Positions 31,722 through 63,167 of a stretch of DNA of 64,000 bases are shown here, piece by piece. Source of the DNA: Thermococcus profundus (lineage in GTDB: Archaea; Methanobacteriota_B; Thermococci; Thermococcales; Thermococcaceae); contig NZ_CP014862.1 in assembly GCF_002214585.1 (NCBI RefSeq), positions 372,001 through 436,000 on the forward strand. Reading direction: 5' to 3'. A program made the position numbers and the translations under genes. Within the stretch, counting starts at the first letter, position 1, and every line of letters begins with the position of its first letter. Below the pieces are notes generated by a model, which worked only from the letters and a program-made list of their open reading frames with translations, made no database searches and had not been told where the DNA came from.

Positions 31722-31785
31722 CCGTGGGTGATGACCACTCTCGAAGCTGACCGCGGGATGATGACCGGATTCCTGGCTGATAATC
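31722..31785 (+). ncRNA. C/D box small RNA (2'-O-methylation guide)
   Basis: All four boxes are present with correct order and spacing: C box GTGATGA (31728-31734), a 12-nt guide, D' box CTGA (31747-31750), a 7-nt spacer, C' box ATGATGA (31758-31764), a 12-nt guide, D box CTGA (31777-31780). A TATA-like CTTTTAAGAC lies at 31688-31697, about 30 bases before the 5' end. The D guide can pair with 23S rRNA bases 40596-40606 over 11 positions (one G-U). The N+5 rule predicts methylation of G at 40600. The D' guide has only a partial match, near 36757-36765 in 16S rRNA. It should bind L7Ae, Nop5 and fibrillarin. Confidence 0.75.
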
Positions 31786-31793
31786 TTGACCAA

Positions 31794-31823
31794 AATCTTT
31801 AAACGGCTGGACAAATAGTCCAA
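31794..31823 (+). promoter_or_regulatory. Promoter and 17-bp palindromic operator of the ABC permease
   Basis: The TATA box ATCTTTAAAC (about 31795-31804) is followed directly by CTGGACAAATAGTCCAA (31807-31823), in which TGGAC and GTCCA form an inverted repeat around AAATA. The palindrome covers the expected transcription start, 5 bases before ATG 31827, where a bound repressor would block initiation. A closely similar palindrome stands upstream of mmdA at 63151-63167. Confidence 0.55.
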
Positions 31824-31826
31824 CAC

Positions 31827-32912
31827 ATGCGGAAGTGGCTGGCGACCCTTATCATGCTCTCGCTCCTCTCGATCTTCCTGGGAGTTTACGTGGGGTCCGT
31901 GAGCGTAGGACCGGAAACCGTTACTTCTGGGATAGTTCACGGAGTAAAGACTACGCTGGCTGGGTGGCTCTCTTCGCTCTCTGAGAGGCTTGGTTCATCC
32001 CTTCACTCCGGGACCCTCATGAGGCTCTCTTCATCCCTCCGCGATGTTGCCAAAGAGAAGCCTCCAAGATACTTCGTGATAGTGTGGAGCCTTCGTCTTC
32101 CTCGCGTTCTGCTGGCTTATCTGGTGGGTCTCTCACTGGCCAGTGCGGGCGTCGCTTCTCAGGCCCTCTTCAAGAACCCCATGGCCGATCCCTACATAAT
32201 CGGAGTGAGCGGCGGGGCGAGTGTGGGTGCCGCCCTGGGGATGATCTACGCTCCCAACTACGTTTCGATTTTCTCGTTCCTCTTCGCCCTCGCGGCGGTT
32301 TACGTTGTTTACAGTGTAGCCCGGGTTGACGGCAGGATTCCAATCGACACCCTCCTTCTGGCAGGAGTAGCCTTTGGATTCATGGCCGGAGCCGTTACCT
32401 CCTACCTCGTCCTGACCCTCGGGCCCAAGGCCCACCTAACCCAGATGTGGCTTCTCGGAAGCTTCAACGATGCGACGTGGGCCGATGTTAGGGACGTCTT
32501 CATAGTTTCCCTGGCGGGCCTTTCCTTCCTCCTGTGGAAGTGGCGGGAGCTCAACCTTCTTCTCTTTGGCGAAGAAAGCGTTGCCCTCGGCCTTGATGTT
32601 GAGCGCTTCAGAAAGGAGGTTATCCTGGTCATAACGGTTATGAGCGGAGTCGCCGTCGCGACCTCAGGGATAATAGGGTTCATCGGGCTGGTTGGGCCCC
32701 ACATAGCGAGACTGCTTGTGGGGCCGAACCACAGAAGACTCACGATAAACGCCGCCCTCCTTGGCGGGATTCTAATGGTCTTGGCGGATCTGGTAGCCAG
32801 GATCATCGCTAGACCAACGGAGATTCCGGTGGGGATAGTTACGGCCATGATGGGGGGTCCCTTCTTCCTCTACCTGCTCAGGAAGCACAAGCGGGGGGAG
32901 ATGAGGCTATGA
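31827..32912 (+). CDS. FecCD/BtuC-type ABC transporter permease
   Basis: A 361-residue permease with about ten hydrophobic segments. Family signatures include WSLRLPRVLLAYLVG, LFKNPMADPYIIGVSGGAS, and GFIGLVGPHIARLLVGPNHR. Such permeases take up cobalamin, heme or ferric siderophores; sequence does not settle the ligand. A roughly 80-residue extension before the first LRLPR block contains the first TM and a Ser-rich stretch. The substrate-binding protein is not encoded nearby. There is no clear ribosome binding site; a leaderless message fits the TATA position. Confidence 0.88.
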   Translation: MRKWLATLIMLSLLSIFLGVYVGSVSVGPETVTSGIVHGVKTTLAGWLSSLSERLGSSLHSGTLMRLSSSLRDVAKEKPPRYFVIVWSLRLPRVLLAYLVGLSLASAGVASQALFKNPMADPYIIGVSGGASVGAALGMIYAPNYVSIFSFLFALAAVYVVYSVARVDGRIPIDTLLLAGVAFGFMAGAVTSYLVLTLGPKAHLTQMWLLGSFNDATWADVRDVFIVSLAGLSFLLWKWRELNLLLFGEESVALGLDVERFRKEVILVITVMSGVAVATSGIIGFIGLVGPHIARLLVGPNHRRLTINAALLGGILMVLADLVARIIARPTEIPVGIVTAMMGGPFFLYLLRKHKRGEMRL

Positions 32913-33628
32913 GGCTCGATGTGAGGGTCTCCTTCTCGTACAACGGGGAGGAGATCCTTAAGGACGTTTCGTTTGGGGCTCACAAGGGAGAGCTTCTGGC
33001 CATAATAGGGCCCAACGGTGCCGGGAAGTCCACCCTGCTGAAGTGCATAGCTGGGATCCTTAAGCCGGAAGGAAGAATTACCCTCGACGGCCTCGATCTC
33101 CTCTCCATGAAACCCTCTGAGAGAGCGAAACTTGTTTCCTACGTTCCTCAGACATCCTTTCCGGAGTTCAGCTTCACCATAGAGGAGTTCGTTGAGATGG
33201 GAGCTTATTTCACTCAGGGAAGCGTTGAGGTTGCCTTAAAGCGCGTTGGCCTCTGGGAGAGGAGGAATGAATCCGTCTTTGCCCTCTCTGGAGGGGAGTA
33301 CCAGCTGGTCCTTATAGCGAGGGCCCTGGCGCAGGGGGGAAGAGTTCTCCTCCTTGACGAACCAACGAGCCATCTTGATGTAAACAACGCCCTGGAGATA
33401 ATGGAGCTCCTGAGAGAGCTCAAAGACGAGAAGGTGGTTATAGCGGTGCTCCACGATCTCAACTTAGCACTGAGGTACGCTGACAGGCTCCTTGTTCTAA
33501 GGAAAGGCTCTAAGGTTTGGGAAGGGAAAGCGAGCGAGCTTGATCCCAAGGTTCTTGAGGAGGTTTATGGGGTTCGCGTTGAGTTCGTCGAGGGAAAGCT
33601 GGGCAGGGCCATTGTTGCGTCCCCATGA
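32909..33628 (+). CDS. FecE/BtuD-type ABC transporter ATP-binding protein
   Basis: A 239-residue ATPase with Walker A GPNGAGKSTLLK, Q-loop YVPQTSF, signature LSGGEYQLVLIARAL, Walker B VLLLDEPTSHLD and switch His in AVLHDLNLA. It overlaps the permease gene by 4 bases and powers the same uptake system at the inner face of the membrane. The missing binding protein must be supplied from elsewhere in the genome. Confidence 0.93.
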   Translation: MRLDVRVSFSYNGEEILKDVSFGAHKGELLAIIGPNGAGKSTLLKCIAGILKPEGRITLDGLDLLSMKPSERAKLVSYVPQTSFPEFSFTIEEFVEMGAYFTQGSVEVALKRVGLWERRNESVFALSGGEYQLVLIARALAQGGRVLLLDEPTSHLDVNNALEIMELLRELKDEKVVIAVLHDLNLALRYADRLLVLRKGSKVWEGKASELDPKVLEEVYGVRVEFVEGKLGRAIVASP

Positions 33629-59420: not shown

Positions 59421-60614
59421 TCAGCCGAGCAGGGCCAGGAAGACTCCAGCTACAACGGCGGTTCCAATAACTCCTGCAACGTTTGGTCCCATGGCGTGCA
59501 TGAGGATGAAGTTCCCTGGATCCTCTTCGCTGGCTATCCTCTGGACGACCCTTGCCGCCATGGGCACCGCTGAAACACCTGCCGCGCCGACCATCGGGTT
59601 GATCTTTCCGCCGCTCATCTTCATCATGAACTTTCCGAAGAGGACTCCACCGGCCGTCGCGCTTGCGAAGGCGATGACACCGAGGCCGAGTATCTCAAGG
59701 GTCTGGGTTGTGAGGAAGCTCTCCGCCCTCATAGTTGAGCCGACGCCGAGGCCGAGGAAGATCGTGACGATGTTCATCAGCTCCTCCTGGGCGGCTTTAC
59801 TCAAGCGCTCGACGACGCCGCTCTCCCTGAAGAGGTTGCCTATCATGAGCATGCCTATCAGCGGTGCGGCGCTCGGGACGAGGAGGCCTATGACTATCAT
59901 GGTGATTATTGGGAAGAGTATCTTCTCCCTCTTGGATACCGGCCTGAGCTGCTCCATGCGGATTCTCCTTTCTTCCGGAGTCGTTAGCGCCTTTATGATG
60001 GGTGGCTGAATGAGCGGGACGAGGCTCATGTATGAGTAGGCAGCCACGGCAGTTGCCGCCAGTATCTCAGGGGCAAGCTTCGTTGTGAGGTATATCGTAG
60101 TTGGACCGTCGGCTCCTCCGATGATTCCTATGCTCGCCGACTGGTTGAGGTTGAAGCCGAGAGCTAAGGCTGTGAGCATCGCTATGAACACACCTATCTG
60201 TGCTGCCGCGCCCATCAGCGCCGTCTTTGGATCCGCTATCATCGGCCCGAAGTCGGTCATTGCCCCGAGGCCGAAGAATATGAGGAGCGGAACAACCTCC
60301 GTCTTCACTAGGAGGTAGTAGATGAGGTCGAACAGACCAGGAGCGCCGTAGTGATCACTCATGTAGGATATGGTCTTGAAGATGCTCTCGCTGACGTTCT
60401 CTGGCAGGTTCACGGCAACGGGCCAGTTGGCTATGCCGCTCAGAGGCAGATTGACCAGCACTGCGGTTATGCCTATTGGGAGGAGCAGGAGCGGCTCCAT
60501 CTCGTACCTGATGGCTAGATAAACCAGTGTCAGGCCCACTATTATCATGATGACGTTCCCTACCGTGAGATGAAGGAGGCCGAGGGTGTTGATGAAGTCT
60601 AGGAACGTTGCCAT
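59421..60614 (-). CDS. mmdB: Na+-translocating methylmalonyl-CoA decarboxylase beta subunit
   Basis: A 397-residue membrane subunit with about ten helices. The Asp in GIIGGADGPTTIYLT and the SKAAQEELMNIVTIFLGLGVG / GGKINPMVGAAGVSAVP repeats are hallmarks of the OadB/MmdB family, where they line the Na+ channel. It decarboxylates carboxybiotin and pumps Na+ out. Last gene of the operon. Confidence 0.93.
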   Translation of the reverse strand: MATFLDFINTLGLLHLTVGNVIMIIVGLTLVYLAIRYEMEPLLLLPIGITAVLVNLPLSGIANWPVAVNLPENVSESIFKTISYMSDHYGAPGLFDLIYYLLVKTEVVPLLIFFGLGAMTDFGPMIADPKTALMGAAAQIGVFIAMLTALALGFNLNQSASIGIIGGADGPTTIYLTTKLAPEILAATAVAAYSYMSLVPLIQPPIIKALTTPEERRIRMEQLRPVSKREKILFPIITMIVIGLLVPSAAPLIGMLMIGNLFRESGVVERLSKAAQEELMNIVTIFLGLGVGSTMRAESFLTTQTLEILGLGVIAFASATAGGVLFGKFMMKMSGGKINPMVGAAGVSAVPMAARVVQRIASEEDPGNFILMHAMGPNVAGVIGTAVVAGVFLALLG

Positions 60615-60620
60615 GGCTCT

Positions 60621-61106
60621 TCACCCGATTTCTATTAGTGGGTCGCCGGTGTTTACGGTGTCGCCTTCTTTTACTAGGATTTTCTTTATTGTGCCGTCTT
60701 TTGGTGCTGGGATTTCGTTTTCCATTTTCATTGCTTCGAGAATGAGTAGTCCTTGGCCGGTCTTGACTTGTTCTCCTTCTTTGACTAGTATTCTGAGGAT
60801 TTTTCCGGGCATTGGGGCTGTGACGACTCCTTCGCCAGTGGCGGCTGGAGCTGGTGAGGGTGCTGCTGGGGCTGCTGGAGCAGCGGGAACCGGAGCAGAC
60901 GAAGGAACAACAGGAGCAGGGGTAGCTGTAGCTGAAACGGTTGTAGTGCCTGTGGGGGCGCTGAGGGTGCTCACGTCTATTCCCAATCCCTGGGCTTCGA
61001 CGGTGTATTCCTTGTCCTCAAAGCTCACCTTGAATTTTCCTCCGGGGAGTTCCTCAACCTCAACCTCGTACTCAACACCATCAACGATGACCTTGACCTT
61101 GGCCAT
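60621..61106 (-). CDS. mmdC: Biotin carrier protein of methylmalonyl-CoA decarboxylase
   Basis: A 161-residue carrier. An N-terminal beta domain (KVIVDGVEYEVEVEEL), a flexible Ala/Pro/Thr linker (about 47-90), and a biotinyl domain with the biotin Lys127 in EAMKMENEIPAPKDG. All seven Glu codons of the biotinyl domain (from about residue 111) are GAA and most Lys codons AAA, unlike the first half and the neighbouring genes, which prefer GAG and AAG. The start has GGTGA very close; GTG 61115 or 61112 are alternatives. Confidence 0.92.
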   Translation of the reverse strand: MAKVKVIVDGVEYEVEVEELPGGKFKVSFEDKEYTVEAQGLGIDVSTLSAPTGTTTVSATATPAPVVPSSAPVPAAPAAPAAPSPAPAATGEGVVTAPMPGKILRILVKEGEQVKTGQGLLILEAMKMENEIPAPKDGTIKKILVKEGDTVNTGDPLIEIG

Positions 61107-61108
61107 TT

Positions 61109-61489
61109 TCACCACTTCCCCATCTCGTAGTTGAAATCTTCAACTTCTTCCATCTGGCTCTGGACGCCGTAGAGGCGCCAGGCGTCTGAAACCTTCCTCC
61201 TGAAGGGCAGGGGTCTGAGCTGGCTCACCTTCTCCGCGGTGTAAGCAAGCACTGCCGCTGTTATAACTGCCAGATCCCTCGGCGGTATCGTCGGCTTCCT
61301 CTCCTCGATCTTAGCGGCTGGAGTTGGGGTCGGTGTGGGGAGGGGAGTTGGTTTCTCCTTCTCCACCAGCCTTCTCTCGAGCCAGCCGACGAAGTAGAGG
61401 ATCAGGGCTAGGATTCCGAGTATTGCGAAGACGACCGTGACACCGATTACAGTTATCCACCCGCCTTCGACGAGCTGGGCCATGTCCAT
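61109..61489 (-). CDS. mmdD: OadG/MmdD-like subunit of methylmalonyl-CoA decarboxylase
   Basis: A 126-residue protein with one N-terminal membrane helix (WITVIGVTVVFAILGILALILYFVG), a Pro/Thr-rich linker (PTPLPTPTPTP) and a soluble tail ending in EDFNYEMGKW. This is the OadG-type assembly subunit that holds the carboxyltransferase to the membrane part. Ten bases after the mmdA stop. Confidence 0.85.
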   Translation of the reverse strand: MDMAQLVEGGWITVIGVTVVFAILGILALILYFVGWLERRLVEKEKPTPLPTPTPTPAAKIEERKPTIPPRDLAVITAAVLAYTAEKVSQLRPLPFRRKVSDAWRLYGVQSQMEEVEDFNYEMGKW

Positions 61490-61499
61490 TCTTCACACC

Positions 61500-63068
61500 T
61501 CACAGCGGTATGTTGCCGTGCTTCTTCGGTGGGAGCTTTACCCTCTTGCTCTCGAGGGCTTCGAGGGCCATAACGACCTTCGCCCTGGTCTTGGCTGGAT
61601 CGATAACGTCGTCGATGTATCCGCGCGAAGCGGCCACGTAGGGGTTGGCGAACTTGTCGCGGTACTCTGCTATCTTCTGCTGCCTGACTTCCTCGGGGTT
61701 CTCGGCAGCAGCTATCTCCTTCCTGAATATGATGTTCGCCGCTCCCTCAGGGCCCATAACGGCTATCTCCGCGGTGGGCCAGGCGAAGACGAAGTCGGCA
61801 CCGAGGTGCTTGCTTCCCATAGCTAAGTAAGCCCCACCGTAGGCTTTTCTGAGGATGACGGTGACCATCGGAACCGTTGCCTCAGCGTAGGCGTAGAGAA
61901 CCTTGGCTCCGTGCCTTATGATCCCACCATATTCTTGTTGGGTTCCTGGCAAATAGCCCGGAACGTCGACGAGGGTAACTATCGGTATGTTGAAGGCGTC
62001 GCACGTCCTCACGAAGCGCGCTATCTTGTCGGAGCTGTCTATGTCGAGGACTCCTGCGAAGTGGATCGGGTTGTTTGCCACTATTCCAACCGTCTGGCCG
62101 TTCATCCTTCCGAAGCCGACAACAGCGTTCGGTGCGAAATATGGGAGTATCTCAAGGAAGTCCGGGTTGCCGTTTTCGTCCCTGTCGACTATCTCGTAGA
62201 TGACCTGCCTCACGTCGTAGCCCTTGTTCGGGTCGTCCGGGACGATGCTGTAGAGGTTCTCGGTCTTCCTGAATGGTAAATCGTTCGTCTTAACCCTCGG
62301 CGGCTTCTCCATATTGTTTGACGGCAGATAACCAACGAGGCGCCTTATCAACGCGAGAACTTCCTCGTCGCTCTTGCCTATGAGGTGGGCCTGTCCGCTC
62401 TTCTGGGCGTGAACCATCGCACCTCCGAGCTGTATCGGTGTAACCTCGACTCCAGTGACCGCCTTGACGACCTGCGGGCCGGTGATGAACATGAAGCTCG
62501 CCGGGTTGTCGACCATCAGGATGAAGTCACCGATGGCAGGGCTGTAAACTGCACCGCCGGCACAGGGACCCATAATCGCTGTGATCTGCGGAACCACGCC
62601 GCTGAGAAGCGTGTTCATCTTGAAGATGTCGCCGTATCCCTTGAGCGAGTCGACGCCCTCCTGAATTCTCGCTCCACCGGAGTCGTTGAGGCCTATAACC
62701 GGGGCACCGGCTTCTAGGGCCAGCTCCATTATGCGTTTTATCTTCGCTGCATGCATCTCTCCGAGCGAACCGCCCATGACGGTGAAGTCCTGGGCGTAGA
62801 CGAAGACGAGCCTTCCGTCGATGGTTCCGTAGCCGGTGATGACTCCATCGGCCGGAAGCTCCTTCTTGTCGAGGCCGAACTCGGTACCGCGGTGCTTCAC
62901 GAACATGCCTATCTCAACGAAGCTTCCGGGGTCGAGGAGCTTTTCGATCCTCTCCCTGGCGGTGAGCTTTCCCTTGGCATGCTGCTTTTCAACGGCCTTT
63001 TCGCCGCCCATTTCCATGATCTTCTTCTTCCTCTCATACAGTTCGCTAACCTTTTCCTCCATGCCCAT
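61500..63068 (-). CDS. mmdA: Methylmalonyl-CoA decarboxylase / propionyl-CoA carboxylase carboxyltransferase subunit
   Basis: A 522-residue carboxyltransferase. It has the two crotonase-like halves, including LNDSGGARIQEGVDSLKGYG, MGPCAGGAVYSPAIGDF, and in the second half VDVPGYLPGTQQEYGGIIRHGAKVL and KAYGGAYLAMGSKHLGAD. It moves CO2 from (S)-methylmalonyl-CoA to biotin on MmdC. With the Na+-pumping MmdB present, decarboxylation is the likely direction. First gene of mmdA-D-C-B. GGGGGAG precedes the ATG. Confidence 0.94.
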   Translation of the reverse strand: MGMEEKVSELYERKKKIMEMGGEKAVEKQHAKGKLTARERIEKLLDPGSFVEIGMFVKHRGTEFGLDKKELPADGVITGYGTIDGRLVFVYAQDFTVMGGSLGEMHAAKIKRIMELALEAGAPVIGLNDSGGARIQEGVDSLKGYGDIFKMNTLLSGVVPQITAIMGPCAGGAVYSPAIGDFILMVDNPASFMFITGPQVVKAVTGVEVTPIQLGGAMVHAQKSGQAHLIGKSDEEVLALIRRLVGYLPSNNMEKPPRVKTNDLPFRKTENLYSIVPDDPNKGYDVRQVIYEIVDRDENGNPDFLEILPYFAPNAVVGFGRMNGQTVGIVANNPIHFAGVLDIDSSDKIARFVRTCDAFNIPIVTLVDVPGYLPGTQQEYGGIIRHGAKVLYAYAEATVPMVTVILRKAYGGAYLAMGSKHLGADFVFAWPTAEIAVMGPEGAANIIFRKEIAAAENPEEVRQQKIAEYRDKFANPYVAASRGYIDDVIDPAKTRAKVVMALEALESKRVKLPPKKHGNIPL

Positions 63069-63110: not shown

Positions 63111-63167
63111 AGTTTAAAAGGGTTTTCAAGGAAATTCGGGCGGTCTAAAATTGGATATTTTGTCCAA
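63111..63167 (-). promoter_or_regulatory. mmd operon promoter and 17-bp palindrome
   Basis: On the minus strand a TATA box CTTTTAAACT (63111-63120) lies about 43 bases before the mmdA ATG. About 30 bases further upstream stands TTGGACAAAATATCCAA (63151-63167, minus-strand reading), an inverted repeat TTGGA/TCCAA. It matches the ABC-permease operator at 31807-31823 in 13 of 17 positions. The upstream position relative to TATA suits an activator or a dual regulator. Confidence 0.55.

Follow-up and report, generated by a model that had tools for sequence, protein, structure and literature searches.

The window analyzed in this work, a stretch of 64,000 nt from Thermococcus profundus, contains two related palindromes in front of two gene clusters. 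The first (box 1, TGGACAAATAGTCCA, positions 31808-31822, or 31807-31823 in its 17-bp version) lies between the TATA element CTTTAAAC (31797-31804) and the ATG (31827) of a btuC-like gene for a FecCD-family permease (31827-32912, + strand; Pfam FecCD, with BtuC as the best NCBIfam model, below its cut-off), and takes up most of this space. The BRE/TATA of btuC (31791-31804, + strand, CAAAAT CTTTAAAC), assigned by consensus scoring, ends 3 bp before the box. The permease gene overlaps a btuD-like ABC ATPase gene (32909-33628, + strand; Pfam ABC_tran). Directly 5' of the btuC promoter, positions 31725-31781 match the Rfam model of a C/D-box RNA, sR5. In three genomes, the gene divergent from btuC (L105:534-2486, L112:523-2472, and L328:2529-4607) encodes an exported protein of 650-692 aa without a Pfam match, which is a possible surface component for B12 uptake.

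The second palindrome (box 2, TGGATATTTTGTCCA on the + strand, 63152-63166) is found 31 bp before the mmdA TATA element (63113-63120 in + strand coordinates; BRE/TATA AAAACC CTTTTAAA at 63113-63126 on the - strand). The mmdA gene (61500-63068, - strand) encodes the alpha subunit of methylmalonyl-CoA decarboxylase (NCBIfam mmdA, 991.9 bits against a cut-off of 998.8); the same strand carries the genes for the biotin carrier protein of the decarboxylase (60621-61115; Pfam Biotin_lipoyl) and its membrane beta subunit of the Na+-pump type (59421-60614; Pfam OAD_beta). Box 1 is downstream of its TATA, where a bound protein would repress, and box 2 is upstream, where it would activate. The initial annotation had located both palindromes correctly, between TATA and ATG of btuC and upstream of the mmdA promoter, and had counted 13 identical positions out of 17 between 31807-31823 and 63151-63167, which we found as well.

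The two sites fit the consensus TGGAY-WWWWW-RTCCA (TGGAY-W5-RTCCA). When TTGGACNNNNNNTCCAA, a loose pattern, was searched with two mismatches allowed, the window gave 13 matches versus 17.8 expected, i.e., no excess, and therefore the palindrome pair by itself is weak evidence; this count is what speaks for chance matches as an explanation. The refined pattern TGGAYWWWWWRTCCA has two exact matches in the window, the two boxes and no others, versus 0.01 expected in dinucleotide shuffles. Since this pattern was refined partly on the same two sites, independent proof has to come from the genome and family counts. A starting genome-wide search with TTGGAC-N5-GTCCAA returned noise plus several AT-centred sites of one type. 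Over the whole genome, TGGAYWWWWWRTCCA gave nine exact sites (none for the reversed control), and 22 sites with up to one mismatch (two for the reversed pattern). At least one exact site was present in each of the 94 Thermococcaceae genomes searched, for a total of 513 sites, against 9 hits for the control; each genome of the sister families had 0-4 exact sites. The initial annotation had called for a search for further sites and for conservation, and both were found. Chance is contradicted by this family-wide enrichment, by the single functional gene set behind the sites and by their fixed promoter positions, and we regard it as practically negligible.

The exact sites in the genome precede nrdD, the alpha subunit gene of an ADP-forming acyl-CoA synthetase, btuC, mmdA, the mutase large subunit gene, the operon of mutase small subunit, MeaB and epimerase, cobQ/cobT, a duplicated binding protein gene with BtuF-like matches, and a radical-SAM gene. 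Sites with one mismatch include a second one at nrdD, a second one at btuF, and those at cobO, a pduO-type adenosyltransferase gene, the cbiB operon, and an aldehyde:ferredoxin oxidoreductase gene. Boxes are thus found before genes of B12 uptake and salvage (btuC, btuF, cobQ/cobT, the cbiB operon, and cobO) and before a B12-independent isozyme, with an nrdD box at all 14 loci examined with mapped starts (one locus is counted with a start-proximal box at one mismatch). The presence of nrdD, which encodes the class III, B12-independent ribonucleotide reductase, points to B12 as the signal rather than the methylmalonyl pathway. Almost all sites could be matched to this B12-linked gene set in those genomes that we sampled in detail. 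The radical-SAM and aldehyde oxidoreductase genes have no known B12 role and count against a B12 regulon. Succinyl-CoA as the substrate of the synthetase would suit the pathway, but this is a guess. The B12-dependent reductase gene nrdJ has a one-mismatch site 172 bp ahead of it, which we excluded as too distant and without support. The gene before cbiB was considered as CobZ; profiles give a family-4 uracil-DNA-glycosylase-like protein instead.

The proposal of the initial annotation that one regulator ties B12 uptake to methylmalonyl-CoA metabolism gains support from the genes that these sites precede, i.e., those for uptake, salvage, the mutase and a B12-independent isozyme. The biotin link that it had suggested checking is not needed to explain the gene set. 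For mmdA itself the claim holds in part: an exact box was present in just 4 of ∼18 Thermococcaceae mmdA promoters, whose core promoter is nearly invariant, and the box is not family-wide. Judging from these promoters, box 2 is lineage-specific, either recently gained or frequently lost. The btuC box was found again in four genera. Outside the Thermococcaceae, two genomes of family f4 (G077 and G079; L332, L333, L334, and L336) carry boxes ∼8-11 bp upstream of a TATA-like sequence at genes for corrinoid proteins or corrinoid methyltransferases. These four sites are an independent hint that the signal tracks corrinoid enzymes there too; the remaining f4 sites, and the f3 sites examined, looked like chance matches.

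We then compared box positions with the best BRE/TATA of each promoter, picked by consensus scoring, so that all positions are predicted from sequence; at the cbiB operon and the divergent cobT/btuF promoters the automatic choice was unreliable and these were judged by eye. Boxes upstream of TATA were found in 15/15 promoters of the mutase large subunit (gap of 32 or 22 bp), 9/9 of the mutase small subunit (31 bp), and all four box-bearing mmdA promoters (30-31 bp). The same is mostly true for the synthetase alpha subunit (31-32 or 11 bp), with exceptions: L123 and L321 have the box downstream of TATA, and L086, L128, and L140 have it out of phase at 6 bp upstream, and the sign of regulation at this gene may vary between genomes. 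Boxes downstream of TATA were found at btuC (5/5), btuF (4/4), nrdD (13), and MeaB (4/4). The TATA-to-box gap is 3-4 bp for btuC (20 bp in L328) and for most cobT, and mostly 19-23 bp at btuF and nrdD, so that boxes of this class would lie between TATA and the expected transcription start, or over the start. A further box on the upstream side of TATA is common at nrdD. Within the mutase small-subunit operon, MeaB has a downstream-class box to itself, 4-8 bp ahead of its start (L091, L125, L324, and L329, from genera g3, g4, and g6). The upstream gaps of 32, 22, and 11 bp differ in steps of one helical turn, a pattern expected of an activator bound to one face of the DNA. What the genomes show directly is the palindromic site with its positions, the genes behind it and the extent of its conservation. 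The opposite placement of the two window boxes, from which repression of one gene and activation of the other had been anticipated, is kept gene by gene, and the regulatory direction would follow from it. In several mutase large and small subunit promoters (L040, L083, L104, L039, and L103), a second conserved element, approximately CCTT(G/T)AGTT(A/T)TG, is present between box and TATA; it is possibly the site of another regulator.

We concluded that the palindrome is very probably the operator (a "B12 box") of a B12-responsive DNA-binding regulator that acts throughout the Thermococcaceae and has a dual role set by position. We infer the protein, its effector (B12 or a cobamide) and the sign at each promoter. 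In B12-replete cells, a regulator dimer would occupy the box. At the uptake, salvage and nrdD genes, where the box separates TATA from the start codon, the bound regulator would block the polymerase and repress; at both mutase genes, in some species at mmdA, and in most cases at the synthetase alpha gene, where the box is upstream of BRE/TATA and helically stepped, it would recruit the basal machinery and activate. B12 scarcity would then raise uptake, salvage and NrdD, and lower the B12-dependent pathway. The reverse scheme, in which the ligand-free form binds DNA, is unlikely because uptake would be repressed exactly when B12 is short. For a single archaeal regulator that represses or activates purely according to position, these boxes may be a clean natural example.

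What reads the box was approached from several sides. A scan of seven regulon stretches, the window among them, gave no cobalamin riboswitch at the Rfam gathering threshold. In bacteria, cobalamin riboswitch regulons put B12 uptake and salvage, and isozymes that work without B12 (ribonucleotide reductase, for example), under the control of B12. The gene set of the B12 box follows the same regulatory logic, but the box is a palindromic DNA site and also occurs at activation positions of B12-dependent enzymes. The Pfam B12-binding domain had two hits in the genome, one in the mutase small subunit and one in a radical-SAM protein that lacks a helix-turn-helix (HTH) domain; none was in an HTH protein. 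Among HTH genes of the tested families adjoining boxes, there was no conserved neighbour except a pair of ArsR genes. A TrpY-family gene was rejected as the reader: the nearby site is directly 3' of the TATA of a divergent radical-SAM gene, and the TrpY promoters bear a different conserved element. These promoters (L171-L200) have CATGGAAACATTTTAATA in common, which is likely a core promoter or the operator of another regulator.

The ArsR neighbourhood raises the alternative that the palindrome is the operator of an ArsR-family protein (L038:4903-5478) encoded divergently from the acyl-CoA synthetase gene, with a regulon of its own and another signal. In Thermococcus the box does lie between the ArsR gene and the synthetase gene, and the ArsR gene is present in 60 of 61 family genomes (the 61st is only 80% complete), with 80-94% identity in nearly all. 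In genus g2, however, the box follows the ArsR genes yet still precedes the synthetase gene, in G004 the synthetase retains its box ∼40 kb away from the ArsR gene, and family f4 has boxes but no ArsR orthologue. Because the box stays with the synthetase when the gene order changes, and f4 lacks the protein, ArsR is disfavoured as the reader and we consider this alternative very improbable. Two ArsR-family genes flank a 101-aa ORF at this locus (L038:4006-5478), and the trio occurs in nearly all sampled family genomes, usually beside synthetase alpha.

An Lrp/AsnC (feast/famine) operator is a second alternative, sensing amino acids or the propionyl- or methylmalonyl-/succinyl-CoA state, in which case the B12 genes would be co-regulated owing to the B12 requirement of the pathway. 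Lrp proteins bind short palindromes whose centre is AT-rich and, depending on where these sit, can act as repressors or activators (PMC2995911); the B12 box shares this palindromic, AT-centred form, a match of architecture only. The archaeal regulators Ptr2, Ss-LrpB, and FL11 resemble the present system in their short AT-centred palindromes and position-based regulation, but differ in the half-site and in having amino acids as effectors, where known (PMC2995911). The genome encodes 11 proteins with an Lrp ligand domain. One of them, L204, was found in every member of the Thermococcaceae checked, as well as in the box-bearing family f4, but also in f5, a family without exact boxes; its distribution is the most suitable of the 11 for a reader, which is suggestive only. 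None of the 11 Lrp gene promoters carries a box, so there is no autoregulatory site, and nrdD, btuF, cobT, and cbiB are accounted for by B12 status, not amino-acid status. We therefore regard an amino-acid- or CoA-sensing Lrp operator as improbable. An Lrp protein could still read the B12 box in response to a B12-related signal.

Comparison with previously described systems helps to place the B12 box. A comparative genomics study (Rodionov et al., 2003, in J Biol Chem) is said to have assigned a "CBL-box" in some archaea to a hypothetical B12 regulator. By this account, the CBL-box is also a DNA signal, not a riboswitch, before archaeal cobalamin genes, and the two may well be the same signal. 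The position code, the helical phasing, the exported-protein genes and the family-wide census come from the present analysis. Our literature search found no paper describing this regulon, nor did the sources searched name an archaeal protein that regulates B12 metabolism. Tar (TK0271) of Thermococcus kodakarensis is an activator of aromatic amino acid genes with the operator TGGACA-N8-TGTCCA (PMC6737238). It resembles the present case in its half-site (TGGACA/TGTCCA), its placement upstream of BRE/TATA, its activator role and its occurrence in the same archaeal order (PMC6737238), and it shows that this half-site is in use by a Thermococcales activator. The B12 box differs in having 3 bp rather than 8 bp between these half-sites and B12 genes rather than aromatic amino acid genes behind it, and so does not match the Tar operator. 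With its position code and gene set, the box provides a direct handle for finding an archaeal B12 regulator in the genetically tractable Thermococcus.

Boxes were also found just 3' of the TATA at genes for exported proteins without a Pfam match in four genomes (G034, G039, G009, and G017; L307, L312, L343, L346, L310, L342, L318, L121, L309, L345, and L088). In two groups, described below, the loci resemble polymorphic effector/immunity cassettes. A speculative and rather doubtful extension is that a B12-sensing regulator of a new type, repressor or helically phased activator by position alone, also runs such effector/immunity-like cassettes, and that B12 starvation would thereby couple competitor antagonism to B12 scavenging. 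Within two groups of the exported proteins (L307/L312/L346 and L310/L342/L318/L121), the N-terminus is conserved and the C-termini diverge. Several of the genes are followed by small ORFs, some of them membrane-like.
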